DNA from: Knoellia flava TL1
GTDB lineage: Bacteria > Actinomycetota > Actinomycetes > Actinomycetales > Dermatophilaceae
Direction: 5' to 3'
DNA: 64,000 nucleotides
Assembly: GCF_000768675.1 (NCBI RefSeq)
Contig: NZ_AVPI01000001.1
Location: forward strand, 1-64,000
Part shown: one piece after another, positions 12,612-52,069 of the stretch
Layout of the letters: every line of letters starts with the position of its first letter
How positions within the stretch are numbered: the stretch's first letter is position 1
The notes under the pieces: generated by a model
Told to the model about the DNA's origin: nothing
Databases searched by the model: none
The model's input: only the letters and a program-made list of their open reading frames with translations
Program-made: the position numbers and the translations under genes

Positions 12612-12613
12612 CC

Positions 12614-14565: not shown

Positions 14566-14593
14566 CACTGCTGAGAGCCCCCGAGACACCGGT

Positions 14594-14626: not shown

Positions 14627-14653
14627 ATCGGCCGTCTCGTCCGCCGCACACCT

Positions 14654-14715: not shown

Positions 14716-14718
14716 GGG

Positions 14719-31000: not shown

Positions 31001-31002
31001 CT
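30957..31002 (+). other. attL: left boundary of the genomic island in tRNA-Thr
   Basis: The 46 bases from the anticodon arm to AGCTCT just past the tRNA end reappear at 51841-51886 and, more diverged, at 54131-54176. Placement at the 3' end of a tRNA gene is the classic tyrosine-integrase target. Confidence 0.85.
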
Positions 31003-31174: not shown

Positions 31175-32047
31175 TCAGGCCGCGTGTGTCGGCCAGTAGA
31201 TGGTCTCAAACTCGACCGGGGTGGTCTTGCCGAGGGAGCGCTGCCGGCGTCGGCGGTGGTAGGTCCGTTCGATCCAGGTGACGATCGCCAGGCGCAGCTG
31301 GTCGCGGGTGTCCCAGCGGCGGCTGTTGAGGACGTTCTTCTGCAGGAGCGCGAAGAAGGACTCCATCGCGGCGTTGTCGGCGCTGGAGGCGACCCGGCCC
31401 ATGGACCCGAGCAGGCCGTGGTGGTGCAACGCGGCGACGTAGGGCCGGGAGCGGAACTGGCTGCCGCGGTCGGCGTGGATCACGCAGCCGGTGACCGTGT
31501 GAGGTCCGCGGCGGGCGACGGCCATCTCGAGGGCGTTCACGGCCAGCGCGGCGGGCATCCGGTCCCCGATGGAGTAACCGACGATCCGCCGGGACCAGAC
31601 GTCCTTGACCGCGCACAGGTACAGCTTCCCCTCGGCGGTGGGGTGCTCGGTGATGTCGGTCAGCCACAACCGGTTCGGGCCCTCGGCGGTGAAGTCGCGT
31701 TCGACGAGGTCGTCGTGCACCGGCGGGCCCGGCTTCTTCCACCGGCCCCGGCTACGGGCGTGCGCGGACACGATTCGGGCCTGCGAGCAGATCTTCCACA
31801 CTCGCCGTTCCGACAGCTGATGGCCGGCGGCGGCGAGCTCGTCGGCGATGAACCGGTATCCGAAGCCCGGGTCGTCGGCGTGCACCTCGAACGCGGCATG
31901 CGTGGCGTACGCGTCGACCAGGTCCCGGTCACTGACCGGATCGGCCTGCCAGGCGTAGAACGCTTGCGGCGAGAACTTCAGCACCCGGCAGGTCACCACG
32001 ACAGGGATCCCGTCGGCGGCAAGGTCACGGACCAGCGGGTACGTCAT
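31175..32047 (-). CDS. IS3-family transposase OrfB
   Basis: The 290-residue catalytic part has the HTH_21 segment and the DDE integrase core: LWLTDITEHP (first Asp), VIHADRGSQF (second Asp) and SADNAAMESFF with the catalytic Glu. The ATG at 32047 overlaps the end of the orfA frame (AAAATGA), the usual place for a -1 frameshift making the fused transposase. OrfB looks intact, but the fusion cannot form normally because orfA carries a stop codon. Confidence 0.93.
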   Translation of the reverse strand: MTYPLVRDLAADGIPVVVTCRVLKFSPQAFYAWQADPVSDRDLVDAYATHAAFEVHADDPGFGYRFIADELAAAGHQLSERRVWKICSQARIVSAHARSRGRWKKPGPPVHDDLVERDFTAEGPNRLWLTDITEHPTAEGKLYLCAVKDVWSRRIVGYSIGDRMPAALAVNALEMAVARRGPHTVTGCVIHADRGSQFRSRPYVAALHHHGLLGSMGRVASSADNAAMESFFALLQKNVLNSRRWDTRDQLRLAIVTWIERTYHRRRRQRSLGKTTPVEFETIYWPTHAA

Positions 32048-32343
32048 TTTGGGGACTGGCCCAGCCTCAGGTTCGCCTGCGACAGGTACGCCGCCGCACG
32101 GCGCAGGACCTCGTTCTCCTGCTCCAGCAGGCGAATCTTCTTCTTCGCCTCGCGCAGGTCTTCGGACTCGGCCTTGGTCACGCCGGGACGGTGACCGTCT
32201 TCGACATCGGCCTAGCGGAGCCAGTTCCGCAGACACGACTCGGAGATCCCGAAGTCCTTCGCGAGCTGGGCGATCGGAGCCTCGCGACGACGCGCGACTG
32301 CGACCACGTCATCACGGAACTCCTTGGGGTGGGCTGCTGGCAT
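32044..32343 (-). pseudogene. IS3 orfA interrupted by an amber codon
   Basis: Starting at ATG 32343 (site GGAAGGATG) the frame reads MPAAHPKEFRDDVV and a helix-turn-helix (IAQLAKDFGISESCLRNWLR), then TAG at 32214-32212, then continues in the same frame as ADVEDGHRPG and the leucine-zipper (KKKIRLLEQENEVLRRAAAYL) to the normal end at 32044. The stop falls right after the HTH, so only a 43-residue fragment is made. Confidence 0.85.
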
Positions 32344-33944: not shown

Positions 33945-34697
33945 TCAGCTCGCGGTATTGGCGATCCACGCCCTCATGCGGCGTTGGCGCTGCTTGATGA
34001 GTGACAGCGTGGCTTCCATACAGGTCACATACTCGTCGACGGTCCGCGGTGTGCCTGTCCGGGCGAAGTCCTCGAGCGGCACATAGAACCGGACCTTTTC
34101 GTAGTCGGGGGTGACCAGGTCCTGGAAGTGGAAGAAGGTCACGAATTCGTCGAAGCCCTCGAACAACGCGAAGAAGTCCTCGTACGCGGCCAGAACATCC
34201 GCGAGAGGGCTGTCTTCCTGCCCCTGATAGTGGCGCCGAATGCACTCGAGGGTGAGGTCCATGCGATCGGCGATGGCTGAGCGGGTTCCTCTTGCCTGAT
34301 TGATGGTTGGCCGGTCCTTCGGCCTCACTAGCCAGATCATGGTGCTTCCGACTGTGTACGGCGGATTCAAGTAGCGAGTCTTCTGCTCCGAGCTCAATGC
34401 CGCGATCGAGTCCACAAGCGCCTTCGGTCGCAACCAACCCGTGTAGGAATTGGTGATCGCATCACTGCCGAACCAATGCTGATCACCTGAGGCATCCGTG
34501 TAGATGAGGTATCCCTCGCGCCGGGTCGCGGGCGCCTCCAGAGCGAACACGTTCCCCGACCTCAAAGGCTTGGACCACAACAGCTGGTGATATCGGCGCA
34601 GCGTCGGGCTGTCACTGTCGGCATCGGGCCTTGTCGCTCGCGGTTGGTCCGTCTCGAAGTTGAACCCATCATCGAAATCAGGCTCGGCCGGAGGCAT
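33945..34697 (-). CDS. DUF6994-like hypothetical protein
   Basis: The 250-residue product resembles what I recall of DUF6994: FDDGFNFETDQP, SPTLRRYHQLLWSKPLRSG, then TVGSTMIWLVRP and INQARGTRSAIADRMDLTLECIRRHY. It is soluble, aromatic-rich and ends with a basic helix (SLIKQRQRRMRAWI). Members occur scattered in actinobacterial accessory DNA, with no known role. It starts 69 bases upstream of nothing recognisable and ends 70 bases before the preceding minus-strand gene. Confidence 0.6.
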   Translation of the reverse strand: MPPAEPDFDDGFNFETDQPRATRPDADSDSPTLRRYHQLLWSKPLRSGNVFALEAPATRREGYLIYTDASGDQHWFGSDAITNSYTGWLRPKALVDSIAALSSEQKTRYLNPPYTVGSTMIWLVRPKDRPTINQARGTRSAIADRMDLTLECIRRHYQGQEDSPLADVLAAYEDFFALFEGFDEFVTFFHFQDLVTPDYEKVRFYVPLEDFARTGTPRTVDEYVTCMEATLSLIKQRQRRMRAWIANTAS

Positions 34698-35037: not shown

Positions 35038-35724
35038 ATGCTCGAACCGACGGTGGCTGAGGCGGCATCTTGGGGGCTCGCGGCTGCACTGGCGAGACGT
35101 CATCCTGAACTTGTTGTGCGACGCGAGCACCCCGGAGGCGGTCAGTACGACGTGTTGGCTGTTCGCAGTCTTCAGGGCTGCGCGGTGATGTTGAACCGCA
35201 CCGGAACGATCCAGGTGCACAAGCGCGATGACGGTCGCGAACCGGACTGGGAACCGTTGTCATGGGCGTCGGCGCTCGAGCTTGACCAGAAGGACCTGTG
35301 CCGCCAACTGGAGTCGGCCGCAGGGTTGCGGAGTGTGTCGGCAACGCCCCAGTCGACTCAACGTGTGCTGGTCTATAGAGTCCTGGCGGCCATAGCCGGG
35401 CTCCACATACTGCGCCCAAGGGTCGAGATCACGATGGGTGCCATCGACACGTCCGGTTCCTTCGGGGGCCCCGCCGAATGGCTTGTGCGGTTTCCCGAGA
35501 TCGCCGCAATTGTGAAGCGCGACCAAAGGCGCGGTGAAGAACCACGGTTCGCCTATTGGCACGCAGGTGCCCGCGACTTCGAAGTCGCATTCGACGTGAA
35601 CACGGGGGATGTGTGGTCCTTGGCGGGTCGCAGGTCGAATCTCTTGGTCGCGTATACGAAAGGTGGGCGACGCATGCCGGCCCTGGTGTCACAGGTTCTG
35701 TCCATGGGGACGGACACGCGATGA
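35038..35724 (+). CDS. T3SS/YbjN-like peptide-chaperone family protein
   Basis: The 228-residue product begins AAALARRHPELVV, then REHPGGGQYDVLAV and LNRTGTIQVH, a pattern I associate with the actinobacterial T3SS-chaperone/YbjN-like (TY-Chap2) domain. The family name is tentative. A later helical part (LVYRVLAAIAGLHIL) is followed by a beta-rich end. TAGCGT six bases before the ATG suggests a leaderless message. The stop overlaps the start of a 50-codon gene (ATGA). Confidence 0.6.
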   Translation: MLEPTVAEAASWGLAAALARRHPELVVRREHPGGGQYDVLAVRSLQGCAVMLNRTGTIQVHKRDDGREPDWEPLSWASALELDQKDLCRQLESAAGLRSVSATPQSTQRVLVYRVLAAIAGLHILRPRVEITMGAIDTSGSFGGPAEWLVRFPEIAAIVKRDQRRGEEPRFAYWHAGARDFEVAFDVNTGDVWSLAGRRSNLLVAYTKGGRRMPALVSQVLSMGTDTR

Positions 35725-36115: not shown

Positions 36116-36820
36116 ATGATCAAGGATCGATTCACGGCCCTACCGGAAAGCTGGACAGTCGCCGACGAGACAACGGTGAGCAAAAGCCTCGAAGCGGTTG
36201 GCGCCGCCCTAACTGCTCCCGCCGTAGTCGACAATCTGGTGGCCTACTACGCCCGAGACCGCAATTTCGCGGGAGCCACCTTCCTCGATCTGGACCCCGT
36301 CAGTCCGTGGGACCTGAATTCGTCGGACTTGCTAGCCCTGAACCTTCTGTCGGTCCAAGCGCCGCCGTACTCTGTTCGACGCCTGCTCGAGCCATCACCC
36401 GACCGCAACCTAGTGCTACGTCTCCTGTCCGAGGACTCGCTCCCCTTGGACGCCGACTTGGCGACGGCAGACCCCGCGACAATGACGGCAATGGCAGACC
36501 TGCACGAGGCGATCAAGGCCTGCCTCTCACCCGCCCACGTCAAGACGAAGAACTCTTGGGTGACCGCGTCAAAACTGTGTGCCAGGAAACGACCTGACCT
36601 GTTTCCAGTTCGGGACAGTGTGGTGTGTGGCTACTTAGGACTCGGCAACAACTACCAGGTCGACTGGCAGGTCTTCCGCAGGATCGTTCAGGAGACAAGC
36701 ATCCGAACTGCGATCGACGAGCGCATCGACGCCGCAGCGGCCAAGGGCGCAGCAATCGGCCATCCCAACCGGCGGCTTCGACACCTCGACGCCATCCTCT
36801 GGATGCACGCCAGGACCTGA
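36116..36820 (+). CDS. DUF6308-like hypothetical protein
   Basis: The 234-residue product resembles DUF6308: WDLNSSDLLALNLLSVQAPP, VRRLLEPSPDRNLVLRLL, then the basic core ASKLCARKRPDLFPVRDSVV and a C-terminal helix (RLRHLDAILWMHA). This is a soluble, mainly helical actinobacterial family of unknown function. A GAGG site precedes the ATG. Confidence 0.65.
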   Translation: MIKDRFTALPESWTVADETTVSKSLEAVGAALTAPAVVDNLVAYYARDRNFAGATFLDLDPVSPWDLNSSDLLALNLLSVQAPPYSVRRLLEPSPDRNLVLRLLSEDSLPLDADLATADPATMTAMADLHEAIKACLSPAHVKTKNSWVTASKLCARKRPDLFPVRDSVVCGYLGLGNNYQVDWQVFRRIVQETSIRTAIDERIDAAAAKGAAIGHPNRRLRHLDAILWMHART

Positions 36821-37250
36821 CGACACCCGGGCCCAAGAACGGTGACGAGGCCAGACCCGTTGCATCACCCCGAGTGATGTCGCACCCGTCCTGACGGCCC
36901 GAAACGGTGGATATCGAGGGACGTCCGCCGATGATCCTGGTGAAGGCTGAAGACGACCGCCACCGCTCGCTGGTGTTCGCGGTTTTTCAGTCGTGCCCCC
37001 CCGGGCGCGGGCTCCCTTACGACACTTGTCCCGCCGACCGGCCGGGAGTCGAAGGTTTGTCCTGGCTTCTCCCGTCCGTTTGAACGGGCGATGCCGGTGG
37101 CTGTGGAGGTGCCGCAGCGACTCCTTGGCGTCCTTCGCCGCGGCGGCTGTTCCGTCCGGGTCTGGGTGGGTGGGTGGGTGACACGGGAGCGGGGTTGTGG
37201 CCGGTATGTGCCTGTGTCCGCACCATCCGCTCGTCCCGGAGGTACCCGCC
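36821..37250. other. 430-base gene-free stretch with a G-quadruplex motif
   Basis: No reading frame here looks real. GGGTGGGTGGGTGGG at 37164-37178 (plus strand) is a textbook G-quadruplex motif with single-base loops, about 70 bases before the NYN gene. The part before it looks like decayed sequence; the ribosome site CCGGAGG is at 37237-37243. Confidence 0.55.
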
Positions 37251-37760
37251 ATGACGACCCACCCGACCACCCCTACCCCCGCCCCGACCGCTCGATCCGA
37301 CGCGGCACTCCCGGCCGCGCGGGGGCGCACGTTGCATCTGGTCGACATCGAAAATCTTGTCCTGGGCCGGCCTACCCCCGCGAACGTGCAGCGCGCTTGG
37401 GCCGCGTATCAGCGCATCGTGGGCGTCTCTGCTGGCGACCAGGTCCGGATCGCCTGCGCTGACGCGGCCGCGGCCGCGGTCGCGTTCTCCATCTCGACCG
37501 GGCGGCAACTCCTGCTTGCTGGCCACGGCCCCAACGCCGCTGACCTGGCCCTGATCGAGTCAGTCGACATCGACTACACCGCACGCCGGTGGGGCCATGT
37601 CGTCATCGCTTCCGCCGACCACATCTTCGCCCCCCTTGCCGGCGCGTTGACCCGCGCGGGCTGCACCGTGTCGGCCGCGCACCTCACCCCGTGCGCGGCC
37701 GCCCTGCGGTTGGCCACCCACACGCAGCACCAGCTGCGGTATTGCCTCACCCTCCACTGA
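37251..37760 (+). CDS. NYN-domain (PIN-like) protein
   Basis: The 169-residue product has the spaced acidic residues of NYN nucleases: LHLVDIENLV (Asp near 32), GPNAADLALI (Asp near 98) and VVIASADHIFAPLAGALTRAG (Asp near 124), after a Pro/Thr-rich N-terminus. It may be an RNase. A GGAGG site supports the ATG. It opens a run of co-directional genes continuing to 49.3 kb. Confidence 0.7.
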   Translation: MTTHPTTPTPAPTARSDAALPAARGRTLHLVDIENLVLGRPTPANVQRAWAAYQRIVGVSAGDQVRIACADAAAAAVAFSISTGRQLLLAGHGPNAADLALIESVDIDYTARRWGHVVIASADHIFAPLAGALTRAGCTVSAAHLTPCAAALRLATHTQHQLRYCLTLH

Positions 37761-37879
37761 TCCATGTCCGGGACCGGCGGACAGCCCATCCGGCCGGTCT
37801 CGGTGACACACCGTGCTTCCCAGTTCAGGTACTCGCCATTGACCCACATCACCAGCGTCACCAGACCCAGGAGAACCTC

Positions 37880-38563
37880 ATGTCTCGCACCACCACGACT
37901 TCACACCCTGCCACCGACGCGGCCCTGCTCCTTCGCCAACCCGACCGGCCCCTGCCGTACCCACTGCTCCTGCGCATCGCCGACGTCCTGGCGGGACGCC
38001 GCGATGGCCGCAGCGGCCTAGCCGGTGACTTGGTCGCGTACTGCCTGGCCGACGACGCGACGACCTGGCTGAGGCACAACCAGCACCGCCTCACCGAACG
38101 CGTCCACTCCGAGACCGTTCGTCACGACGCACTGGCCCTGAGCCTCCACCAAGAAGCCGCTGCCCTCCCGGGACAGATCAAGGACACCAAACGGGAACTA
38201 CGAGCCGCCCACGCAGCCCTCGCCGAGCTGCCTCCCACCCCCAGCAATCCGACCGCGCGCCGCGCCACCGAAGCTCACACCGACGCGACCGTCGTTACGG
38301 CCCGCCGCGCCCGCGAACACCACGACACGGTCTTGGCCCCTGCCCGCGCCCGAGTCGCCAATGCAGAACACGCACTGTCCGAGCTCCGAACCCGACGCCG
38401 CGACATCATCGCGACCCTGACGGCCCTAGCCCAGGTTCACGCCCAACGCACCGGCCGCCTCACCGAGTTCCACGCCCGACGCGCACACGCATACGAGCGC
38501 GCATACCTTCGCCGCCTCGCCGGCACCCACAACGACCCCACAACCACGGCCACAGTCGCCTGA
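37880..38563 (+). CDS. Coiled-coil hypothetical protein, 227 residues
   Basis: The family is not recognised. Two helical, charged and Ala-rich segments (residues ~85-110, HQEAAALPGQIKDTKRELRA, and ~150-200, ARVANAEHALSELRTRRRDI) suggest coiled coils. There is no signal peptide or membrane helix. The codon use is His/Thr/Ala rich like its neighbours downstream. An AGGAG site lies before the ATG. Confidence 0.6.
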   Translation: MSRTTTTSHPATDAALLLRQPDRPLPYPLLLRIADVLAGRRDGRSGLAGDLVAYCLADDATTWLRHNQHRLTERVHSETVRHDALALSLHQEAAALPGQIKDTKRELRAAHAALAELPPTPSNPTARRATEAHTDATVVTARRAREHHDTVLAPARARVANAEHALSELRTRRRDIIATLTALAQVHAQRTGRLTEFHARRAHAYERAYLRRLAGTHNDPTTTATVA

Positions 38564-38706
38564 CCCGCCCCGGCGAGGCGCAGCCTGCGTGCCCGACCAC
38601 CGCCCACCCCGAGGAGAACCCACCTGGTGACACGGTCAGCCCAACGCACCCGGTATACGCCGGCACCACCACCCCACACCGACCTGCACCACGACTGGAG
38701 CCCGCC

Positions 38707-39957
38707 ATGAACCGCAACACCACCCACTCCCCCACTACCGTCGCCACAACCCGCATCGCCTCGCTTCTGGCCGCAGTAGCCATGGCCATCTGGGGCGCGG
38801 GCTGCTCGGCCCCGGCCAACCCTGCCCGTGACTGCCTTACCCAGCCGCTGCCACCTGCTCCAGGCGCCCTAATCGTGCTCGTGGGTGTTCACGCGAACAC
38901 CCCCGCCCCGGCCTTGCCGGCCCCCGCCGCGCCGATACTGCAGGCAACCCTTGCCGCCGGGAACCCGGTCAAGGTTGTCGCGGTCGACGGCACCCCCAGC
39001 ACATTGCCGATCTCAGCGACAATGACCGTCGCACGAAGTACCTGCGACACCTTCGACACCGACCTCGCGGTCGCGACCAACGCCGTAATCGACACGATCA
39101 CGGCTGCGACCGCCGACAGTGACGGGGACAACCTGTTCGCCGCCATGGACATGGCTGGGCGCACCATCGCCGCCGGCGGCTGGTCCAACGCCACGATCCT
39201 GGTCATCGACTCAGGCCTGGCCGAGCGCCCCAATTCCCCGATCAACTTCGCCCAGCCCGGGATGACAAGCCTCAACGACGACCAGATCACCGCCGCCGCC
39301 GACTTCGCCACGACAAACCAGCCTCTGGACCTCAAGGGCGTCACTGTTGCCTTCCATGGCCTGGCCGCGACCGCCGCGCCACAACCCTCACTCTCGCCTG
39401 CCGAAGCCCAGGTCATCGCCAAACTGTGGGTCGAGATCGCCAAGAACGCTGGTGCCGACTCCGTCACGGCAGTCCCCACGCCGCGCACCGGCCCCGGGCC
39501 CCAAACCCGGTACATCACCACTGTCATCCCGCCCGCGGACGTGTCCACATTCGAACCGCCGACCCCCGGGAACCCGACGAGGGCCAAGTTCGGCGAGGAG
39601 GACATCCACTTCGCCTTCGACTCCGCCACCATCACCGACCCAGGCGCCGCCACTGCCAAGCTGGCGCAGTTGACGGCGTGGCTCGCTGACGACCCCACCC
39701 ACCGAGTCCAGCTGCGCGGACGCACCGATTCCTCGGGCACTCCCGGCCACAACGAGGATCTGGCCGGTCGTCGCGCGACGTCCGTCAAAGCGTTGATCCT
39801 GACCGCCGACCCGAGGATCAGCCCCAGCCAGATCAGCACGTTCGCTGACGGTGAATCCTTCAAAGGGGCCCTGCCCGACACCCGCCCCGACGGCTCGCTC
39901 GACCCAATCCCCGCAGCAATGAACCGCCACGTCCTAGCCATGGCCACCACCGATTGA
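38707..39957 (+). CDS. Lipoprotein with C-terminal OmpA-type domain
   Basis: The 416-residue product has a signal peptide with lipobox WGAGC (Cys33), a ~240-residue von Willebrand-like region (ALIVLVGVHANTP; ATILVIDSGLAERP), lacking the metal-binding DxSxS, and a C-terminal OmpA/MotB domain (HFAFDSATITDPGAA; VQLRGRTDSSGTPGHNEDLAGRR). It should sit on the outer face of the membrane and touch peptidoglycan. A hairpin follows the stop. Confidence 0.75.
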   Translation: MNRNTTHSPTTVATTRIASLLAAVAMAIWGAGCSAPANPARDCLTQPLPPAPGALIVLVGVHANTPAPALPAPAAPILQATLAAGNPVKVVAVDGTPSTLPISATMTVARSTCDTFDTDLAVATNAVIDTITAATADSDGDNLFAAMDMAGRTIAAGGWSNATILVIDSGLAERPNSPINFAQPGMTSLNDDQITAAADFATTNQPLDLKGVTVAFHGLAATAAPQPSLSPAEAQVIAKLWVEIAKNAGADSVTAVPTPRTGPGPQTRYITTVIPPADVSTFEPPTPGNPTRAKFGEEDIHFAFDSATITDPGAATAKLAQLTAWLADDPTHRVQLRGRTDSSGTPGHNEDLAGRRATSVKALILTADPRISPSQISTFADGESFKGALPDTRPDGSLDPIPAAMNRHVLAMATTD

Positions 39958-39960
39958 AAT

Positions 39961-39990
39961 GGCGGCGCCCTGACACCTTCGGGCGCCGCC
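39961..39990 (+). terminator. Hairpin after the OmpA-domain lipoprotein gene
   Basis: GGCGGCGCCC (39961-39970) pairs perfectly with 39981-39990 across a 10-base loop, 3 bases after the stop. Confidence 0.65.
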
Positions 39991-40114
39991 AGCTGGGGCC
40001 ACTCCCCCGAGGCCACTCGAACGGTTGACACAGCCGGGACGCTTCCGCCGGTTCTCACCGTGACACCAGACACACCACAACCCACCGCCCACACGTGGAA
40101 GGGACACCCCGCCA

Positions 40115-40561
40115 ATGGCCACCCGCACCGCCTGGACCCAGCTGTACATGGACGTGCTCCACCACCGCCTTGGACTGAACGCCGTCGCCGAACCGGGCCA
40201 CCTCCACGTCACCGACGGCAGCGACTGGCACTACCTCCTCGCCACAGACCCCGACACCACCCCCCACCACCTCCAGATCAGTTTCCCCGTCAGCTACGGC
40301 GGCTTCGACGTCCTGGACACCCAACCCCGTCTCATGGGCAGCATCGGAATCCGCCTCAACACCGCCACCGACCTGGTCAAAGTCGCCCCGACCAGCCCAA
40401 CCGGCTGTCTCTACATCATTCACGCCCATCTCGCCGCCCCCGGAACCCTGCCCAGCCCCGATCTCCTCGCCGCGCTCCTGCCCTCCTGGTTCGCCCTTCT
40501 GGTCGACGCCCACCAGCAACTCCTCACCGAGATCGAGGCCGCGACCCTCTACAGCGCCTGA
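40115..40561 (+). CDS. YbjN/T3SS-chaperone-like small protein
   Basis: The 148-residue product alternates beta strands (HLHVTDGSDWHYLLA; HHLQISFPVSYGGFDV; GSIGIRLNTATDLVKV) with a C-terminal helical pair (LLAALLPSWFALLVDAHQQLL). This pattern recalls YbjN or type III chaperone-like domains, but no signature decides it. It is 155 bases downstream of the lipoprotein and 88 upstream of the next gene. Confidence 0.5.
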   Translation: MATRTAWTQLYMDVLHHRLGLNAVAEPGHLHVTDGSDWHYLLATDPDTTPHHLQISFPVSYGGFDVLDTQPRLMGSIGIRLNTATDLVKVAPTSPTGCLYIIHAHLAAPGTLPSPDLLAALLPSWFALLVDAHQQLLTEIEAATLYSA

Positions 40562-40648
40562 TTGCCCATCGTTCGACACACACGGCATCGGTTCGCCGGT
40601 ACCCCGATTGTCCGAACCAGCACCCCCCAACACGAAAGCAGACCTGTC

Positions 40649-41566
40649 ATGGACCGCACCACCACCTCCTCCGACCCCGCGCGCGCGGCTGTTCTCCCGT
40701 CGTCGCCCTCGCCGGGCCGGTACGCACCACCGGCCACGCACGGCACCCCCGACCAGAGCCCCGCCCAGCACGCCCGGACCTCCGCGTTCTACTTCACCAC
40801 GACCGTCGTCTTGGGGACGGTCGACGCCATCCTCATCAAGACCGTCTGGAACGTCGTCCTCAAAGACAACGAAATCATCTCCTGGACCATGGCGATCCTG
40901 ACCGCGCTCGGCGCCTCCGCTCTGGCATGGACGGCGGGCCGATTCGCCGCTGTCGGGCTCACCGACCGACACCGCACCCACGTCGTCGGCGCCGCCTTGG
41001 CCGCCCTCACTTGGGCAGGCCTGGGAGCAGCCCTCTTCCTGCTCCGGTGGAACGCCGGCGCCCTCACCGGCACCACCATCCGGACAGAAGGGGCCAGCAC
41101 CGCCGCCGCGGACAGCGCGACGGCAATCCACCACCTCTTGGCTCTGTGCCTCATCGCGCTGTACGCGCTTCCCGGCGTCCTGGCCACCCTCCACGGCTGG
41201 GAAGCCGGGAACCCCGTCGCCGCCCGTCAACGCCAAGCCCACACCACCCTGACCCGACTGACCGGCGAACTGCGCCACGCGGAGGCGCGCCTCCACGAAC
41301 TCAGCGCCCTCACCACCCAACACCACAACAGCAAAGCCCGTGTCGACGACGAAGCCGGGCTCGCCCACGACCAAGCCGACGCCCTCGCCGCCGAGCTCAA
41401 GGCCTACACCCGCATCCGCATCGCCCACGCCCTCGCCGACCCCACCGGCGTCCCAGGGCCCCCCGCCACCACCGTCGGGAACAACCCGCACCACCTGAAC
41501 CGAAGCGACGCACCCGACGACACCAACGACCCCGCCCCCGAACAGCACCAATCTCACGCCGCCTGA
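40649..41566 (+). CDS. Membrane protein with C-terminal coiled coil
   Basis: The 305-residue product has about four helices (residues ~45-160, e.g. AILTALGASALAWTAGRFAA, AALAALTWAGLGAALFLL, LLALCLIALYALPGVLATL) and a long heptad-like cytoplasmic tail (LTRLTGELRHAEARLHELSA; LAHDQADALAAELKAYT) ending in a Pro/Asp/His-rich tip. The family is not recognised. The ATG at 40649 is preferred over an upstream in-frame start 29 codons earlier. Confidence 0.6.
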   Translation: MDRTTTSSDPARAAVLPSSPSPGRYAPPATHGTPDQSPAQHARTSAFYFTTTVVLGTVDAILIKTVWNVVLKDNEIISWTMAILTALGASALAWTAGRFAAVGLTDRHRTHVVGAALAALTWAGLGAALFLLRWNAGALTGTTIRTEGASTAAADSATAIHHLLALCLIALYALPGVLATLHGWEAGNPVAARQRQAHTTLTRLTGELRHAEARLHELSALTTQHHNSKARVDDEAGLAHDQADALAAELKAYTRIRIAHALADPTGVPGPPATTVGNNPHHLNRSDAPDDTNDPAPEQHQSHAA

Positions 41567-41655
41567 CCCCACTGCCCAGCGCCACTCACGACACAGAACA
41601 AGCGTGCGCACCGGTACCCACCGTCACGTGCGCCCACCCTGGAAGGAAAGACCCC

Positions 41656-42228
41656 ATGCGAAACCTGATCATCACCCTCACCACCCGCCTGCGCGCCCGC
41701 CGCGACCAACGCCGCTCGACCGACCACGAACCCGTTCTGCTCCACGGCACCGACACCACGGATCACCACGACCCGGCAGGCACCCCCAGCGCCGGATACC
41801 CCCACCACTACGTCCCCACCGGTCATCTCGGCACCACCGGCGAACCCCACCGCGACGAAGAACTCGCTTGGATCGACGCCGAAATCGCACACGCCCTCGA
41901 AAGCGGCATCCTCGACGAGGGCAACCACCACTACCTCGACGCTCTCATCGATCACCGGACCACCCAATGGCACGCCGCGATCGAAACAGTCGCCCACCGC
42001 CGTCGCCACGCCGCCGACGGTCTCATCGCCACCGCCACCTACTACCTTGCACTCGCCCGCCATGACCTGGCCACCACCCGCCTCGCCCACGCCACAGCGG
42101 CAGCCGCACACGCCCACCTCACCACCCAACTCGCCGGCACCCACCCCGCACCCATCAATCACGAACCCACCCCCATCCCTTCACCCCTCACCGCCACCCT
42201 GCACGCCGACCCACCCTGCGCGAAGTAG
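41656..42228 (+). CDS. Hypothetical helical protein, 190 residues
   Basis: The product begins MRNLIITLTTRLRARRDQRR, which could be a weak amphipathic membrane anchor, then has a His/Pro-rich stretch and helices (DEELAWIDAEIAHALESGI; YYLALARHDLATTRLAHA). It is His-rich overall. The family is unknown. The GGAAGGAAAG site strongly supports the ATG. Confidence 0.55.
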   Translation: MRNLIITLTTRLRARRDQRRSTDHEPVLLHGTDTTDHHDPAGTPSAGYPHHYVPTGHLGTTGEPHRDEELAWIDAEIAHALESGILDEGNHHYLDALIDHRTTQWHAAIETVAHRRRHAADGLIATATYYLALARHDLATTRLAHATAAAAHAHLTTQLAGTHPAPINHEPTPIPSPLTATLHADPPCAK

Positions 42229-42307: not shown

Positions 42308-43540
42308 ATGACAACCCCCTGCGGCCTGGCCACCGTGTCGGCTTGTCGCGGCACAGCTGACGCAATGCTGCACACCCACCAACTGCCCCCTGAAGAGGAG
42401 CGGCACAGTTTCGGCTCACGCACGGTCCACCCCGCAGCACAGCGGCGCGGATTCGACCAACTCGACGCTGGGACCAGCAACTGGTGTCCGATCTGCCAAT
42501 CCACCCTCATGCGCTGCTACCGGGCGGGTTGCTCGAACGCCGCCGCTGAAGCCATGAGTTACGCCTACCTCGCCGCCGTCTATGCCCTCAACATCACGCG
42601 AGGCAAGTACGGCCGGGCATGGAGCAGCGAAGAGGAAGACTGGGCGACCCACGTGGCCCACCGCAGAGCGAAGTCACGAGTGACAGGCAACTCCGGAGAC
42701 CCCGACAGGTGGCCAACCCCGCCCAGCAGTTTGGTCAACTGGTTCGCCGGCTGGGTCCAACGGGACATCAAGACCGAGCTGGAGAGAAAGTTCGGCATCA
42801 ACAGTGACGACGACCTTGACGACCCCAGCACGGGCGGCGATCACGACCCCGACCCCGTTACAAACCCCATCAGTGGCGAGGGCACCCCAAGCGGGGGACC
42901 GAATCCCTCGACCCTCCGTCCCAATAGATCGTACCCATCCAACAGATCCGCCTCAGGTTCACCGACCTACCTCGAAGATCAGAGCGGAGGCATCGACGTG
43001 CTCGGCCCTCCCACAGGTCGCCGTGGCCAACCAAGTTTGATGCCCGGCACTACTTCGCCCTTCCGGGGGCCGGAGCAGGCCGCCTTGATCAAGGAATACA
43101 ACGAACTCCTCAGCGGAGAACTCACCGGACTGGTAGACGTCCTGCTGCGCGAACTCACCGGACTCGAACCACGAGGAGACAGCCCCACACCCCGAGAGCT
43201 CATGCTCACCTACATCGCCAACATCGTGGAGCAATGTCGGCGCGTCGACGGCAGCCCCTGGAAATCCGAACGCAGCATCGTCACCGATCGCCTCAAGGTG
43301 CTGAACCCCGAAAGTAAGGCCACGCAACGGGACATCAACCGCTTGCAAAGCCAAGTCCGTCGCACCCGCACCGAGGTCCTGACCCCCGCCTGCTCAGCGC
43401 TCATCGAAGATCGAAACAACACCCTCACCGATCGCCAACGATCCGCGCTCCAACACCTGCTCCACCACATCAACGGCGACCGCATCACCATCGCTACCAC
43501 CCATGACGAAAAGAATGACACCGAAGTAGGCCCCCGATGA
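42308..43540 (+). CDS. Cys-cluster protein, first gene of a three-gene overlapping operon
   Basis: The 410-residue product is not recognised. Residues ~60-80 carry CPICQSTLMRCYRAGC, a probable zinc site, and the region after it (EAMSYAYLAAVYALNITRGK; RDIKTELERKFG) is helical. The middle is a Ser/Pro/Gly-rich disordered linker (~165-260), and a helical C-terminal domain follows (ELMLTYIANIVEQCRR). The last four bases (ATGA) overlap the start of the next gene, so the products may act together. Confidence 0.65.
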   Translation: MTTPCGLATVSACRGTADAMLHTHQLPPEEERHSFGSRTVHPAAQRRGFDQLDAGTSNWCPICQSTLMRCYRAGCSNAAAEAMSYAYLAAVYALNITRGKYGRAWSSEEEDWATHVAHRRAKSRVTGNSGDPDRWPTPPSSLVNWFAGWVQRDIKTELERKFGINSDDDLDDPSTGGDHDPDPVTNPISGEGTPSGGPNPSTLRPNRSYPSNRSASGSPTYLEDQSGGIDVLGPPTGRRGQPSLMPGTTSPFRGPEQAALIKEYNELLSGELTGLVDVLLRELTGLEPRGDSPTPRELMLTYIANIVEQCRRVDGSPWKSERSIVTDRLKVLNPESKATQRDINRLQSQVRRTRTEVLTPACSALIEDRNNTLTDRQRSALQHLLHHINGDRITIATTHDEKNDTEVGPR

Positions 43541-44379
43541 ACCCGCTAGAGCCACTCCCCAGAGACGTCACCGCCTACGAAACGCTCCTCTACAGCTACA
43601 TCACCAGCCACGACACCACGCTTCCCCACCCACTCACCTACCTCGACGAGGAACCCGCCTACTGGGCCGCCAGCAACGGACCCCGAACGCCTGAAGAAGC
43701 CACCCACATCCTCAATACCCCCCACCTGCTCACGTTGCTCACCGAACTCTGGTACGAAACGCCACCAAGCCTCGAAGCCATCGCCGTTTGCAGGGCCACC
43801 CCTCAAGGGAGCACGCTCCTCACCGCTACCGGGCATTCCCGAGCCCTAGACGCCCAACAAGAAGTCGGGGACACCCTGGTCGCAGACTCCATCCCTGGCC
43901 CTGACGATTTCCTAACTCTCCTACTTTCCAAGCGGTCAACCCACCACATCGCGGTGCCGCTCTCACATGCGGCGGCGAGTGACGACCTACCCCTCCTCGA
44001 ACAGATCCGCGAGGGCGATATTGACCTCACGGCGCAGGTTCGCGGGCGCGCCGGCGACTTCACAGTCACCGTGACGGCTGACGGTCGGGGTGGCCGCTTC
44101 GGCATCCTCCAGGTTGGGAATCATTCCCGTGCGACCTTCGTCCTGCCGCTTGGCGACGGCGCCCGAGTCACACTCGCGCTGACTTCAATCAAGGGTGGCA
44201 TCCGTCTCGCAGTACTCCCTGACCTCGCTTCGGTGCTCGCGGAGAAGGCTTTTGGGGAGATTATCGCCCACAGCGTTCGCGCCTCCGACGGCACCACACA
44301 GGAGGTGTGGCGAGATCTAGCAATGGCGGCGGGCGCAGGCAGCATTCTTTACACAGCAGTCGCAGACGGCCTCCGATGA
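43537..44379 (+). CDS. Hypothetical protein, second gene of the three-gene operon
   Basis: The 280-residue product overlaps both neighbours by ATGA junctions. It has a helical N-terminal part (LEPLPRDVTAYETLLYSYI; HLLTLLTELWYETPP) and a beta-rich C-terminal part (FTVTVTADGRGGRFGILQVG; RVTLALTSIKGGIRLAVLP), without signal peptide or membrane helix. The family is not recognised. Its position suggests a partner or regulator of the giant protein that follows. Confidence 0.65.
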   Translation: MNPLEPLPRDVTAYETLLYSYITSHDTTLPHPLTYLDEEPAYWAASNGPRTPEEATHILNTPHLLTLLTELWYETPPSLEAIAVCRATPQGSTLLTATGHSRALDAQQEVGDTLVADSIPGPDDFLTLLLSKRSTHHIAVPLSHAAASDDLPLLEQIREGDIDLTAQVRGRAGDFTVTVTADGRGGRFGILQVGNHSRATFVLPLGDGARVTLALTSIKGGIRLAVLPDLASVLAEKAFGEIIAHSVRASDGTTQEVWRDLAMAAGAGSILYTAVADGLR

Positions 44380-47300
44380 CCTCTGAGCGACGATCGACTA
44401 ACAGAGAGTCCGAAGGGGTGGAGCACCTGCCAACCTCCCCGTTAGAGAGAAGACTCCTCGGGTCCGAAGTGGCGTGGCTGGGGTATGCGCGTGCAGGTCT
44501 CGCTGGAACCGGCAACTTCCTCACCGACGAAGTGAAGACGGCGCTCGCGCGCGACACCCACCGCAACCGGATCGGGCAGGACAGCATGCGCTGGCCATTG
44601 GTCGCGCGAGCAGTCGCGGGCGGGCTCGACCAAGTGATCGTGGATCTTCGTAGGGGGAGTGACGTAATCGGGTCAAGACATCTTCCCGATCTACTCGATC
44701 TGTTTGCGGCTCACGGTCTCGTCTCCGCGCAGAACGCCGAGCGAAATGAACCCAAGCAGGGGGCCCGCCATGGCGTTCAATTACCGCAGGCTGTGGAAGC
44801 CGGGGCTCGGTGGGCAGCAGACATGTCTCAACACCCGGCTGGCGCCTTCGGGGCCCTCCTACTCAGGGTCCTTGCCACCGAGGACAGTGCCGCTGGCCGT
44901 GGCCAACTCAGCGTGTCCATGCCCGTGCTCCTCTACCGCGAAGGCGGTCACGATGAGGCAGAGAACAGAGGTCTCGTTGGGACGCTATCCGTGTCCCTGT
45001 GGCCGGGCGGTCCACCGGGGCTCCATCCCGACCCTCGCGTCATGACTTTCTCGACGGTCGAAGCCGATGCACGGCAGGGCTTCGACCGAGCGTTCGCTGC
45101 TTCCGAGCACCCTGTTGCTGGCACGTGCCTAACCTGGTCGGTGCGAGACGAGGGCGGGGCTCCCCTGCGCGCAATCCGGGGGGATTCGCTCGCAGCTGCA
45201 GTTGGTCTCCTGCTCCGGGAGCTCACGACGCGGCAGGCGACGTTGGCCCACGTCGCTTGGCGGGTTCGTCCTCAGCGTCTGGACCGCTCGTGGTGCATCA
45301 CTGCAGGTCTCGACGAAGACCGACTCACCACAGTCAAGCACTACGACAGCAAAATCAAGGCGGTGGCGCAGCTCACTAGGCCCCTGAAGGTCATTACGGC
45401 GGCGCCCGAGACCGGTCAGATGGGCGTTGCCCACGGCGTCGAGGTCCGCGTGCTCGACACGCTGGGTGCCGCTGTTTCTGCGACTCGAACCCTCAACCGG
45501 GGTTTCGTCGCAGCGCTTCTGGCGGTGGTGGTGGCCCTTGGCACTGTGGCCGGTGCGGGGGCGTGGGTCCGAGCCACGCAGCTCGCCGCGGCAAAACGTG
45601 ACACCGCCACCACGCTTATGCAATACGCACGCTCCACCCTGAACACCGACCCGCGTATCGCAGCTTTGTCAGCTCTGGCTGCGGATGACTTCGACCCGTC
45701 CCTCCGCACTCAGGAGGTGATGGCGGAGGTTCTCGAAGCGAATCAGAGCATTGCAGGTGTCATCGACCTTGGCGATCCTGTAGTCCGGGACCTTCAGGTC
45801 ATCGGTGACACCCTCCTCGTGCTCGACGTTCGTGGCCGGGTGACTGCTTGGGACCTCAGGACTCGGACCAGCTTGGGCACCCTCGTCAAGTCTGGTGCTG
45901 GGGCCATCGGTCCTTACGGCTACTCCGGGGCGGTCATCCTCGTGGAGAGGACCCTGCATCGCTATCTGACGGCGACCGGTTACCGACCCGTCGAGGTTGA
46001 GACCATTGAGACCGGTCTGACAAATAGCATTCTTATGGGTGGGATCTTCCAGTCGGGGGAAGGGGTTCTTGTCCTAAATGCCGCATTCGAGGGCGTCTAC
46101 CACGACGGCTCTTTGGACGCCCCCATCAAATTCGACTTCGGAGACGACCCACGCCTCGAGCGAGACCCGGCTCGTAGGGGAATCTCGGTGCGAGCCGCGA
46201 CCCCCGGCTTCGGCAACAATGATGTTTTCCTCGCGACAACAGCAAGGCAAATCCTTTCATTGGATGTGGTGCACGACTATGTCGGCGCCGGTGCACCGAA
46301 AGTTACTCTCGAAGTGATTATGACCGGCTCCCTAGTTCCCGCCGCGCCCACCGCATTAGCCACGGGGGCCGGCGAGACCCTGCTCATCGGCACAGATCGC
46401 GGAGTGCAATGGGTCGACGTAAAGGAAGGGAAACAGAAGGAATTTCCCTACGCTGGCTGGTCTCAGAGGGTTTTGGATATCGCCAACTCTGACAGTTCCA
46501 ATCATGCAATCGCCTCCGTCGACGGCCTCTCTTACGTCACGGAGCCGACCGACGACCAACCGCGACCGGCCCCAACCCGCATGGCCTTCCCGGATTCTCC
46601 AATCACCGCCATCGCCACCCATGAATCGCCCGGAGGACCTCAGGTCTTTGTTGCTCAGGAAAACGGGACGATGACCATCGTCGACCCCACGGATTCGCGG
46701 TTCGGCCCACGCCCCATACCAGGGTTAGTCTTTGCCTCATTCACTCCTTCCGGGCACGTGCTGGGCGCTCCCCCATACAGCGCGAACGCTTCGAGCTCCC
46801 TGACCGCTCGCAATCCCCTCCCTCCTTCGCCTGAAAGCGGCGTGGTGGACCCCTACGCAATCACCTACTCTCTTCCCCAGCGGGGAGGCCATTACCCCTA
46901 CGTGAATTACGGGGAAGCGACCCAGGATTGGGTTGTCGGATCAGGTCGTCGCGCAGATGGTCATGGCGCCTTCTGGGTGTGGCCCATCAGCGGATTCGGG
47001 GCACCTCGTGAGGTTAGTTTCGGATACGGTGAGTCGACCGCGGACGACGTGCCCGACATCGTCCAGAATGTCTATTTCGTCGCGGCTGGCAAGGAGATTG
47101 TCGCCCTGAATTCTGCGTTTGGTCGGCTGGGCTTCTGGGACGTGACGACCCTCGAGGAACTCGGCACAGTAGCCGTACCCCGCTACAACACCTTCAGCGA
47201 ATCCGGCTCGGTAATTATGGTGACGTCTGCCGACGGCAAGACCGTTGCGGTCAAGACCGCACCAAAGACGATAATGGTGGTGGACGTTGCGACACACAAG

Positions 47301-48734
47301 GTGACGCATACCTTGAATCTCTCGGATGTATCTCTCACGAACCTCGCACTCAACCGTGATGGATCCGAGTTGGCTCTCATTGACAACTTCACAACCCTGC
47401 TCCGCGTCAAAACGAAGCCCGACAAGGGAGGGGCCACCGTGGTTCTTGATCGACGAGACCTCAAGTCGGTCGTCCGCGACCTGGCCTATGACCCCGCGGG
47501 CACCCACCTCGCCATCGCGGAGACGGTTGCCAGGAAAGTCCAATTGCTCGACGCCCGCACCCTGGAACCGGTCGGTCCGAAGTGGGCTGTGCCGGACGGT
47601 CAGCACCCCATGGGTCTCTCTTGGGCTCCGGACGGAAGATCACTTGTCGTGGCGACGATGGTCTATTCCGGGGAAGTGGCCAAGACAAATACCACCAGAG
47701 TCATCGATGCGGGGATGCTGACGTGGCGTAAGCAATTATGCTCCATAGCCTCCCGACCCTTCTCCGCAGAGGAGTGGAAAACCGCCTCAGCCTCTGGACT
47801 GGACCGCCCAGACTCATGCGCGAACGCCGGTGAGCCCAGGGGGGCAGGTTCGTCCGCCACAGCTGCCCAAAGCGGAAGCACCCGCCCGACCGATGACCGC
47901 TCGACACGGCCCGTCAATTCCGACGAGGCGGGTGGGGTGACGCGTGACGTGCTCATGGCCGGAGCACCGATACCGGAAATGTGTGGGCACCCGGCACAAG
48001 CGATGGTTCTAGGGCAGATGGCGAGCCCACCTCCGAACGGCGGCAACGTCTGGTTGCAGGATGTGACGAGAGGTGATCTCAACGGTGACGGTACTCCGGA
48101 GGCTATTGGAACAGTGGGGTGCTCGGCCGGCGGTGCCAGTTGGGCGCCTTGGATAATCGCGTGGACTCTCAACGACGCGGGAGACCCGCAGATTCTGGCG
48201 ATGATCGAGTCAAGCGACAAAGAACTGATGCGCCTGTCCCCCGAAGGGGGGCTGCGGCCCAGTGTCACCGATGTCACTATTCAGGGGGGGCGGGTGAAAG
48301 TGAGCCTGAGAGCAGGGCTGCCCTCGGACTCGAACGCAAACCCGAGACTGCCCCTGGAGGCTATTCTAGACCTCGACACCGACTCGGGCGCCTTTACGGT
48401 TGACCAAGTGGACGCGCGATTCGACTTGGCGGCCACCACCACCCTCTTCGAGGAGCTTCGCTATCCGACCGGGCTGGAGGCCGCAGCCGATCCCCGCGTC
48501 ACGAACGCCATTCGGGGCTTCTTGACCGACAACATCGGCGTGGAGGTCGGCACGTGTGAAGAATTCGCGGACCTTCCCAAAGACCTCCGTGCACGGGTCG
48601 GAACTGGTAAGGCGACAGGTGCGAGCCGCTACTGCACTCTCGTCACTTCGCCGCTTCGGAAGTCAAAACCCCTCCTCCTGAGAGTTGTCCCGAAGGTCGG
48701 CGCAGTCAATGAGGTAGTGGAGGCCTTCCCGTGA
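44376..48734 (+). CDS. Giant membrane-anchored beta-propeller protein with Lon-like N-terminal domain
   Basis: The 1452-residue product has an N-terminal ~370-residue cytoplasmic domain; around GDSLAAAVGLLL (Ser271) and KHYDSKIKAVAQL (Lys326), with ITAGLDED between, it resembles the Ser-Lys core of Lon (S16) peptidases. One membrane helix follows (residues ~376-398). An AALSALAADDFDPSL helical motif like that before the WD40 repeats of NACHT-type proteins leads into a ~750-residue propeller. Near the end, DLNGDGTPEA (1234-1243) is an EF-hand-like calcium loop. The Lon match is my inference. It starts by an ATGA overlap. Confidence 0.6.
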   Translation: MTSERRSTNRESEGVEHLPTSPLERRLLGSEVAWLGYARAGLAGTGNFLTDEVKTALARDTHRNRIGQDSMRWPLVARAVAGGLDQVIVDLRRGSDVIGSRHLPDLLDLFAAHGLVSAQNAERNEPKQGARHGVQLPQAVEAGARWAADMSQHPAGAFGALLLRVLATEDSAAGRGQLSVSMPVLLYREGGHDEAENRGLVGTLSVSLWPGGPPGLHPDPRVMTFSTVEADARQGFDRAFAASEHPVAGTCLTWSVRDEGGAPLRAIRGDSLAAAVGLLLRELTTRQATLAHVAWRVRPQRLDRSWCITAGLDEDRLTTVKHYDSKIKAVAQLTRPLKVITAAPETGQMGVAHGVEVRVLDTLGAAVSATRTLNRGFVAALLAVVVALGTVAGAGAWVRATQLAAAKRDTATTLMQYARSTLNTDPRIAALSALAADDFDPSLRTQEVMAEVLEANQSIAGVIDLGDPVVRDLQVIGDTLLVLDVRGRVTAWDLRTRTSLGTLVKSGAGAIGPYGYSGAVILVERTLHRYLTATGYRPVEVETIETGLTNSILMGGIFQSGEGVLVLNAAFEGVYHDGSLDAPIKFDFGDDPRLERDPARRGISVRAATPGFGNNDVFLATTARQILSLDVVHDYVGAGAPKVTLEVIMTGSLVPAAPTALATGAGETLLIGTDRGVQWVDVKEGKQKEFPYAGWSQRVLDIANSDSSNHAIASVDGLSYVTEPTDDQPRPAPTRMAFPDSPITAIATHESPGGPQVFVAQENGTMTIVDPTDSRFGPRPIPGLVFASFTPSGHVLGAPPYSANASSSLTARNPLPPSPESGVVDPYAITYSLPQRGGHYPYVNYGEATQDWVVGSGRRADGHGAFWVWPISGFGAPREVSFGYGESTADDVPDIVQNVYFVAAGKEIVALNSAFGRLGFWDVTTLEELGTVAVPRYNTFSESGSVIMVTSADGKTVAVKTAPKTIMVVDVATHKVTHTLNLSDVSLTNLALNRDGSELALIDNFTTLLRVKTKPDKGGATVVLDRRDLKSVVRDLAYDPAGTHLAIAETVARKVQLLDARTLEPVGPKWAVPDGQHPMGLSWAPDGRSLVVATMVYSGEVAKTNTTRVIDAGMLTWRKQLCSIASRPFSAEEWKTASASGLDRPDSCANAGEPRGAGSSATAAQSGSTRPTDDRSTRPVNSDEAGGVTRDVLMAGAPIPEMCGHPAQAMVLGQMASPPPNGGNVWLQDVTRGDLNGDGTPEAIGTVGCSAGGASWAPWIIAWTLNDAGDPQILAMIESSDKELMRLSPEGGLRPSVTDVTIQGGRVKVSLRAGLPSDSNANPRLPLEAILDLDTDSGAFTVDQVDARFDLAATTTLFEELRYPTGLEAAADPRVTNAIRGFLTDNIGVEVGTCEEFADLPKDLRARVGTGKATGASRYCTLVTSPLRKSKPLLLRVVPKVGAVNEVVEAFP

Positions 48735-48795: not shown

Positions 48796-49266
48796 ATGAC
48801 GGCGAGCCAAGCATGGACGACAACTATTGGAGCGCTTCTGTGCGCGGTCCTTATAAGCTCGTGTGGTACCCGGTCGGATGCGACGCTTGGACAATCAGCC
48901 TCCCCGTCCCCCACGAAAGCCTCCGGTGCAACGAATACAGGGGTGGGAACCGGCGGTGAACCGGTCGACGGTGTCTCGAGCGGGGAGACTCCACCGGAGA
49001 CTGGGCGGTGTAACGTCGAAACAGTCGCGCAGGACCTGGGTGATGAGAGTGCTGAACGTGGCGATGCGCGGCCAACTGTCGTGGCATGCGACGGAGCTTG
49101 GGCCATTTTTCAGACGGGCTATCTGCCACAGTCCTGGCTGATGGCCAAGTGGACCGGCAGCGCCTGGGAGGCAGCGTTCGGATTTCCCACAGCGAACTGC
49201 CGCGATGACTTTATCGGCATGGGAGGCAGCCCCAAAATTGCCGCCGTGCCGAATTGGAGCTGTTGA
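48796..49266 (+). CDS. Small lipoprotein
   Basis: The 156-residue product has a lipoprotein signal peptide with lipobox LISSC (Cys23), a Ser/Thr/Gly-rich stalk to about residue 70, and a small domain with three further cysteines (RCNVETVA; VVACDGAWA; ANCRDDF; ending NWSC) that could form disulfides. It follows the giant protein by 61 bases and may be its extracytoplasmic partner. The family is not recognised. Confidence 0.65.
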   Translation: MTASQAWTTTIGALLCAVLISSCGTRSDATLGQSASPSPTKASGATNTGVGTGGEPVDGVSSGETPPETGRCNVETVAQDLGDESAERGDARPTVVACDGAWAIFQTGYLPQSWLMAKWTGSAWEAAFGFPTANCRDDFIGMGGSPKIAAVPNWSC

Positions 49267-51437: not shown

Positions 51438-52069
51438 CGAGCCTGCGCCTGTCGCCTCATATGGCACGGTGCTAACGCTACTTCGGACCGACAACACAAC
51501 TGCCCAAATTGTAGGATCCGTCTGACTTCGTGGCACGCGGAACTCATACGAGTCTGACTCCGACCGGAGTAGTCCGCGGCTTGTATCGCGGCATCATGCC
51601 TTTGATTCGAAGGCCCGACTTTCGGCATGTGCGAGCGTTGTCAAACGTCAGGTGGCCTGCGACGCACTCGCGCGGTTGGGGCGCCTCCGGACGCAGGTCG
51701 GGGAACGTGGAGTCAGGCACAGCAGTGGACAGGGATGGTCATGGCTAATCGCATGTGTATCGCACGAGCCAGGGATCGCACCGAAAGGCCACCGACGTCT
51801 ATGCAGATCACCGACGGTTTTATGGTTCAGCAGGCCGCAAGTCTTGTAAACAGGTGGTTAGGGGTTCAAGTCCCCTCGCCAGCTCTCACACGAATGCGCA
51901 GGTCGGGGTATGTTTCGGGCTCGAGAATTCGAATCAATCGAGGCGTTTGCAGGGCCGTTTCAAGGCCGGTACGTCGAAACGATCGACATGAGTCGGCGCG
52001 CCGACCGTCGGACCGGGTCGGCCCAAGGCATGATGCGACGCATTCAGCGCTGAAGGGGGAGTTCAAGCC
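51438..52069. other. Gene-free stretch carrying the first right attachment site
   Basis: This ~630-base stretch holds attR1 (51841-51886). The sequence on both sides gives only broken frames. The ribosome site AAGGGGGAG of the next gene is at 52053-52061. Confidence 0.5.
51841..51886 (+). other. attR1: partial tRNA-Thr copy between two island units
   Basis: The first 19 bases (GTCTTGTAAACAGGTGGTT) are identical to tRNA-Thr 30957-30975. The T arm then changes but still pairs (AGGGG/CCCCT with loop TTCAAGT), and CGCCAGCTCT is again identical. No 5' half is present. Confidence 0.85.

Follow-up and report, generated by a model that had tools for sequence, protein, structure and literature searches.

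Knoellia flava TL1 probably encodes a membrane-bound, propeller-bearing Lon-type protease that acts as the switch of a cascade

The first 64,000 nucleotides of contig NZ_AVPI01000001.1 of Knoellia flava TL1 (the window) carry a trio of genes, here gene 1, gene 2 and gene 3, of which the last encodes what is probably a membrane-bound, propeller-bearing Lon-type protease and the switch of a cascade. Judged by its family profile and predicted fold, the N-terminal domain of the gene 3 protein is of the Lon type and has a conserved Ser-Lys dyad. In related bacteria gene 3 and a partner gene are found beside a sigma factor, and this arrangement points to a possible membrane alarm working through cleavage of its partner protein. 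A sequence-only reading of the window, made without database searches, had described three genes that overlap by ATGA; the coordinates, the frames and both ATGA junctions were exact, with all three genes on the plus strand. The length given for the gene 3 protein, 1452 residues, was also exact, and its motifs were located as claimed, starting at residues 269 (GDSLAAAV, containing Ser271), 308 (ITAGLD), 325 (SKIKAV, containing Lys326) and 1234 (DLNGDGTPE, the calcium-loop motif). The same reading had found no recognised family for the two partner genes, and scans of their proteins with Pfam, NCBIfam and PADLOC likewise returned no family at an expect value (E) of ≤1.

Using a profile of six N-terminal domain sequences, none of them a known Lon, ten matches were obtained in the PDB at E ≤ 10. 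The top five, all Lon proteins with E values from 0.016 to 0.071, have the lysine in register, and those ranked 6 to 10 comprised four Lon proteins and one flagellar protein. In 396 genomes of the phylum this profile matched two, the window's own and one in which the match reads as LonA (E = 1e-4). With a 26-sequence profile, 42 sequences in the PDB were matched at E ≤ 1, every one of them a Lon (best E = 5e-6), and its alignment places the serine of the Lon GPSAG motif on Ser271 and the lysine of the Lon EKL motif on Lys326. The 25 relatives in this alignment share between 20 and 31% identity with the window's domain, the sequence of which is divergent, and Pfam Lon_C was present in 14 of the 26 members individually, the best at E = 7.1e-6. 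No AAA+ family was found in a Pfam scan of the full gene 3 protein at E ≤ 1.

The AlphaFold2 model of gene 3 residues 1 to 373 (predicted local distance difference test [pLDDT], 81.3; predicted template modeling score [pTM], 0.84) gave 63 Foldseek matches at E ≤ 0.001, and the best 50 of these 63 were all Lon, RadA or CalpL. Template modeling scores against Lon proteolytic domains reached 0.74 by target length, and the CalpL structure 7qda ranked 44. Ser271 and Lys326 were identical in 31 of 31 proteins, and Thr309, which aligns to the threonine of the Lon AMTG motif, was identical in 29 of them. The resemblance of the Ser271/Lys326 spacing to the Lon dyad had been noticed from a single divergent sequence, and it proved right, with profile, model and conservation in agreement: the 50 PDB matches listed do not depict a fold unlike that of Lon, and no homologue lacking either residue was found among the 31.

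The relatives were drawn from plasmids and genomes. A tblastn search of 72,556 plasmid records with gene 3 identified three records, the best from Nocardia sp. NBC_01377 (E = 3e-7), with matches confined to residues 180 to 372. On the Nocardia plasmid an annotated sigma-70 family gene is followed by genes for a 223-amino-acid hypothetical protein and a WD40 protein, with overlapping ends, and on the Streptomyces sp. Alt3 plasmid the order is a 173-amino-acid protein, a 233-amino-acid hypothetical protein and a large hypothetical protein. A pattern scan of a collection of species genomes, based on a five-sequence alignment, identified 27 loci in Nocardia, Mycolicibacterium, Mycobacterium, Streptomyces, Kitasatospora, Actinoplanes/Paractinoplanes, Pseudonocardia and Actinokineospora, with Palleronia doubtful, and further plasmid members were added to the first three records. 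The 31 loci counted here are the window, L003 to L007 and L013 to L037; no count includes L038, a frame of 191 codons, or L039, a frame of 576 codons from Palleronia. Many of the relatives, in Nocardia and Streptomyces, are close kin, and locus counts are therefore not counts of independent events.

Close relatives of the window's own trio were not found in a plasmid DNA search, the gene 1 and gene 2 proteins had no plasmid match, and a first scan of genome contigs with the gene 3 protein alone found none. Among 396 genomes of the order, a full-length match to the N-terminal domain was present only in the genome that the window comes from, with partial matches over the Lon part in 80 other genomes. 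The gene 2 protein was found only as the window's own copy among 297 genomes of the order, as was the gene 1 protein among 396 genomes of a phylum sample; a gene 2 profile (A5) matched none of 396 genomes, missing even the window's own, and is hence uninformative. Viral contigs yielded no match to any of the three proteins or to an alignment that excludes L003 to L007 (A3), and phage records held no match to the N-terminal domain of one relative.

The sequence-only reading had placed one membrane helix after the N-terminal domain, and the top hydrophobic stretch of the window's protein lies there, at residues 376 to 394. It had also proposed a propeller-like region, which is weak in the window's own protein, where the best Pfam match (THOC3 propeller, E = 9.9e-9, residues 894 to 1003) falls below the curated cutoff and NCBIfam gives one weak propeller match (E = 0.052), and clear in relatives, where Pfam WD40 is above the cutoff (P0006, E = 4e-18; L006 protein, E = 1.2e-15). 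The final 281 residues of gene 3 match no Pfam family. Cysteines were counted in 29 full-length proteins, with the truncated proteins of L014 (617 amino acids) and L036 (560 amino acids) excluded and the helix of L034 set at position 397. The count after the helix is even in 27 of the 29, and in all 29 a pair of cysteines 25 to 27 residues apart closes the propeller. In the window's protein this pair lies at -331 and -305, and the extra C-terminal part holds two more pairs.

In 11 loci, including the window, the gene directly 3' of gene 3 bears a signal or lipobox. A scan for such signals flagged 14 loci, of which L017, L026 and L036 were dropped by eye, and relatives of the Streptomyces lipoprotein at the same place in L027 and L028 bring the total to 13 of 31. 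Two conserved lipoprotein families are represented at this position, one in L004, L007, L027, L028, L030 and L032 and the other in L005, L029 and L031. Because of the paired cysteines and the neighboring lipoprotein genes, sequence features favor a propeller that faces outward and a protease that faces inward.

Gene 2 belongs to a partner family. Profile searches identified gene 2 homologues adjoining the Lon-propeller gene in 27 of the 30 related loci, although most of the sequences counted had also been used to build the profiles, the independent evidence being L029, L036 and the cross-matches between two profiles, which match each other at E = 1.9e-5. The window's gene 2 was missed by hmmsearch with the family profiles at E ≤ 0.1. 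When compared with the family profile using hhalign it scored 31.1 (E = 0.00073, with a probability of only 26%), against 21.6 for the best of 117 control proteins and 17.7 for the best of 60 shuffles. With the window's gene 2 included on the basis of this comparison, its matching C terminus and its place, a partner adjoins 28 of the 31 Lon-propeller genes. The structure modeled for one Nocardia member (pLDDT, 78; pTM, 0.63) comprises helices and a beta domain, with three helices at the C terminus. Assignment of gene 2 to a known fold was rejected: a profile search of the PDB gave no match at E ≤ 10, and a fold search gave none at E ≤ 0.001.

Gene 1, by comparison of the loci, is a swappable slot and not one family. 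In 11 of the 31 loci it is sigma-like and accompanies gene 2, and in another 11 it encodes a small protein with two hydrophobic stretches, as judged by eye. In L033 (positions 3864 to 7497) a caspase gene (Peptidase_C14, E = 4.5e-12) precedes a gene for 610 amino acids at the gene 2 position, followed by the Lon-propeller gene. In the window and the other loci no family could be assigned to gene 1. The L003 gene is annotated as sigma-70 family, and two sigma-like genes tested match Pfam Sigma70_r4 at E = 2e-4, just under the curated cutoff. A 12-sequence sigma-like profile had 15 PDB matches, 14 of which are sigma-factor entries (best of those, E = 0.012); the top match, 8vd6, is unrelated. 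The sigma gene, gene 2 and gene 3 run in the same direction in L003 and L023, and in L006 as well, with an opposite gene between. Further genes accompany some of these loci: a second sigma/gene 2 pair followed by a gene for a 1101-amino-acid WD40 protein lies directly 3' of the first Lon-propeller gene in L019 (positions 10895 to 15543), and a conserved gene of about 160 amino acids, read from the other strand, is found immediately upstream of gene 3 in L006, L013, L016, L017 and L019 to L022.

The window's own gene 1 was also considered as a sigma factor, and this candidate was rejected. The resemblance had been seen by eye; Pfam and NCBIfam gave no match, and a phmmer search of the PDB returned six nuclear-receptor matches (E = 0.4 to 1) and no sigma factor. 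Against the Nocardia sigma profile it scored 15.9, while the best of 117 controls scored 40.9, 23.4 and 23.1.

We propose, with a probability of about 0.48, that gene 3 encodes a membrane receptor-protease that cuts the gene 2 protein in the manner of the CalpL/T/S and Csx29/Csx30/sigma systems, bound to the membrane and apart from clustered regularly interspaced short palindromic repeats (CRISPR). The protein would be a single-pass membrane protein with a cytosolic Lon-type serine-lysine peptidase that lacks an adenosine triphosphatase. Its C-terminal propeller would face outside and sense an envelope or extracellular signal, perhaps together with the lipoprotein, and clustering or rearrangement driven by that signal may then activate the peptidase. 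Once active, the peptidase would cleave the gene 2 protein, an adaptor translated in step with gene 3, and so free the gene 1 product, which is sigma-like in the Nocardia relatives and something else in the window. The gene 2 protein is the likely target of the window's protease, and gene 1 likely serves as its output; this output is taken as a switchable slot because the gene 1 product differs between the Nocardia relatives and the window. Cleavage and release are inferred from the CalpL/T/S and Csx29/Csx30 precedents, which have been tested, and, by analogy, a protease-inhibitor-sigma triad with a membrane receptor would fit the Nocardia loci best. A more specific version is put forward tentatively, as something that may well not hold in full: a one-chain transmembrane receptor-protease in which binding at an extracytoplasmic propeller would directly switch the cytosolic Lon peptidase, and cutting of one conserved adaptor would free interchangeable outputs (sigma-like factor, membrane protein or caspase), with no intramembrane proteolysis.

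According to the available part of PMC11417357, CalpT, an anti-sigma factor in complex with CalpS, is cut by CalpL of type III CRISPR. The likeness to the trio, as far as that part describes the system, lies in a Lon peptidase fused to a sensor and an adjoining partner gene, with a sigma-like factor in the Nocardia relatives. The sensor differs, being SAVED in CalpL/T/S and a propeller across a membrane helix in gene 3, in which the Pfam scan at E ≤ 1 detected no SAVED. CalpL/T/S has an extracytoplasmic function (ECF) sigma partner, whereas only 11 of 31 trio loci have a sigma-like gene and the window's gene 1 matches no sigma profile; CalpT is an anti-sigma factor, whereas the model of the gene 2 family has no PDB match at E ≤ 0.001. 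In type III-E CRISPR, as given in the accessible portion of PMC10028731, Csx29 cuts Csx30, which inhibits a sigma factor, and the logic of protease, cleaved inhibitor and sigma in Csx29/Csx30/CASP-sigma resembles that proposed for the trio; Csx29 differs, according to the same portion, in being a protease of the CHAT type that target RNA switches on via Cas7-11. Sigma pathways of the DegS/RseA type, as outlined there, likewise pass an envelope signal to a sigma factor via proteolysis, but the trio's peptidase would sit inside the cell, fused to its own receptor.

LonA and LonB share the proteolytic fold and Ser-Lys dyad of gene 3 but carry AAA+, for which gene 3 has a propeller beyond a single helix and no matching Pfam family. 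Sensors of the nSTAND/NACHT-WD40 type have a nucleoside triphosphatase before the propeller, and none was found in gene 3 by the Pfam scan at E ≤ 1. The EACC, VMAP and TRADD-N conflict systems, in the portions of PMC7159879 and PMC8195603 available, resemble the trio in having peptidases, propellers and, in some neighborhoods, ECF sigma factors; their peptidases are there mainly of the trypsin or caspase type, whereas that of the trio is of the Lon type, and the word Lon does not occur in the main texts of either paper. The neighbors of ECF54 listed in the available part of PMC8999054 are CHAT, subtilase and carboxypeptidase. No description of the Lon domain-helix-propeller architecture or of the trio was found in the literature, which is weak evidence, as most subscription papers were beyond the search.

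Several results weigh against the receptor-protease reading. The window's N-terminal domain alone has no Lon_C match and found no Lon by phmmer in the PDB, and because this single sequence matches no Lon, it is assigned through the family profile together with the model. The hydropathy scan of the region after the N-terminal domain, which peaked at 1.74 to 2.77 in the 31 proteins, yields a best peak by construction, and further peaks exist in L033, L035 and L036. Charge counts flanking the helix do not settle the topology, and as a control the cysteine count of the N-terminal domain is also even in 18 of the same 29 proteins; since these domains, too, are often even, it is the pair at the propeller end, not parity, that carries weight. 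No gene 2 homologue was found by profile search in L005, L031 or L033. Given the lack of a PDB match, an anti-sigma fold is not supported for gene 2. The profile tests do not support the window's gene 1 as a sigma factor. The trio is thus conserved together only in part: gene 2 keeps its place, whereas gene 1 changes family and in eight Nocardia loci the sigma/gene 2 pair is divergent from gene 3.

Some of these results would be expected if both halves of gene 3 were cytosolic and the helix only an anchor, with the propeller recruiting substrates and the protease acting in general stress or phage defense. WD40-type propellers are often cytosolic scaffolds, the charge is similar on both sides of the helix in many members, even cysteine counts also occur in the N-terminal domains, and the copies on two Streptomyces linear plasmids, L004 and L007, adjoin type I-E cas genes. 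We consider this arrangement unlikely in view of the propeller-closing cysteine pair, present in every full-length protein, the lipoprotein or signal-bearing genes downstream and the lack of any defense-system family for the window's three proteins in a PADLOC 2.0.0 scan at E ≤ 1. Slightly less likely again is a suicide or conflict module in which the activated peptidase would cut the partner and release a toxic membrane protein or caspase that kills the cell; the gene 1 products with two hydrophobic stretches, the caspase gene preceding the gene 2 position in L033 and the mobile type of the window's island are in keeping with it, while the sigma-like partners point to transcription and the window's gene 1 matches no family.

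The structural matches of the N-terminal model include RadA, which is not known to be a protease, and the window's divergent sequence has no Lon match by itself, so that the Lon-like domain could be a pseudo-protease that, like that of RadA, serves in structure or binding. A binding module would have no evident reason to keep exactly the Ser-Lys dyad, and its retention in every one of these diverged proteins makes this explanation improbable. The sequence-only reading had the propeller sense and the Lon-like part respond, in defense or sensing. Of this the Lon part held, sensing is an inferred role, and defense, with no PADLOC match, has no direct support. A defense role of the trio is possible; the relatives suggest gene regulation at least as much as defense. 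In L004, a frame of repeated peptide units, CRISPR-like by eye, lies between the trio and the cas genes.

Table 1. Coordinates of the trio, its parts and associated features in the window
Feature	Coordinates	Strand	Description
Gene 1	42308..43540	+	410 amino acids; CPICQ...C cysteine cluster; in relatives this slot holds a sigma-like gene, a small membrane protein gene or a caspase gene
Gene 2	43537..44379	+	280 amino acids; distant member of conserved partner family; C-terminal VR.S....WR..A......AV..GLR
Gene 3	44376..48734	+	1452 amino acids; Lon-like domain, membrane helix, helical linker, propeller, C-terminal extension of ~300 amino acids
Lon-like proteolytic core (gene 3 residues 180-363)	44913..45464	+	Contains Ser271 and Lys326
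Predicted membrane helix (gene 3 residues 376-394)	45501..45557	+	Hydropathy scan
Lipoprotein-like gene 3' of the trio	48796..49266	+	156 amino acids; signal with lipobox LISSC; possible surface partner
tRNA-Thr(TGT)	30928-31001	+	3' part (30957-31002) is the left boundary repeat
Partial copy of tRNA-Thr 3' part	51841-51886	+	46 bases, 87%; right boundary repeat

The trio lies inside a stretch of about 21 kb bounded by a transfer RNA (tRNA) gene and a partial copy of its end (Table 1), the T-stem of the copy differing by paired changes, as if brought with an element. The guanine-plus-cytosine (GC) content is 61 to 69% in 2-kb windows from 32 to 54 kb versus 68 to 77% outside, and GC skew is strongly negative from 38 to 44 kb. 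The left flank was matched in nine of nine genomes of the genus, the window's included. Genomes G286 and G267 carry a second copy of the tRNA end about 10 kb and 2 kb further on, respectively, so the site is recurrent, and in G122 DNA resembling the right flank starts about 6 kb past the tRNA. A tRNA-linked island with no housekeeping genes had been proposed; the link to the tRNA stands, and the absence of housekeeping genes was checked for the open reading frames scanned, among which no integrase or CRISPR gene was recognized.

Adjoining the tRNA gene is an IS3-like transposase gene (31175 to 32236; Pfam rve and HTH_21). Beyond it are genes for DUF6994 and DUF6308 proteins (33945 to 34697 and 36116 to 36820, respectively) and a protein of the TY-Chap2 peptide-binding chaperone family (35038 to 35724; E = 6.5e-38). 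A row of plus-strand genes precedes the trio (37197 to 42228), including a weak NYN-like gene, one for an OmpA-type protein (38707 to 39957) and others with no family assigned.

Cascades of Lon protease, adaptor and sigma factor are already known from CRISPR loci. If the receptor-protease reading is true, a membrane form with its own outward sensor would show the Lon peptidase to be a reusable switch in bacterial signaling and would link a signal outside directly to the protease within. It would also point to a role for proteins that currently bear a hypothetical or WD40 repeat annotation, and the proposal is directly testable, given the dyad, the partner and the candidate substrate. The more tentative one-chain version, if it holds, would make the trio a non-CRISPR equivalent of the Calp cascade in general use, spread over plasmids, islands and chromosomes of actinobacteria.

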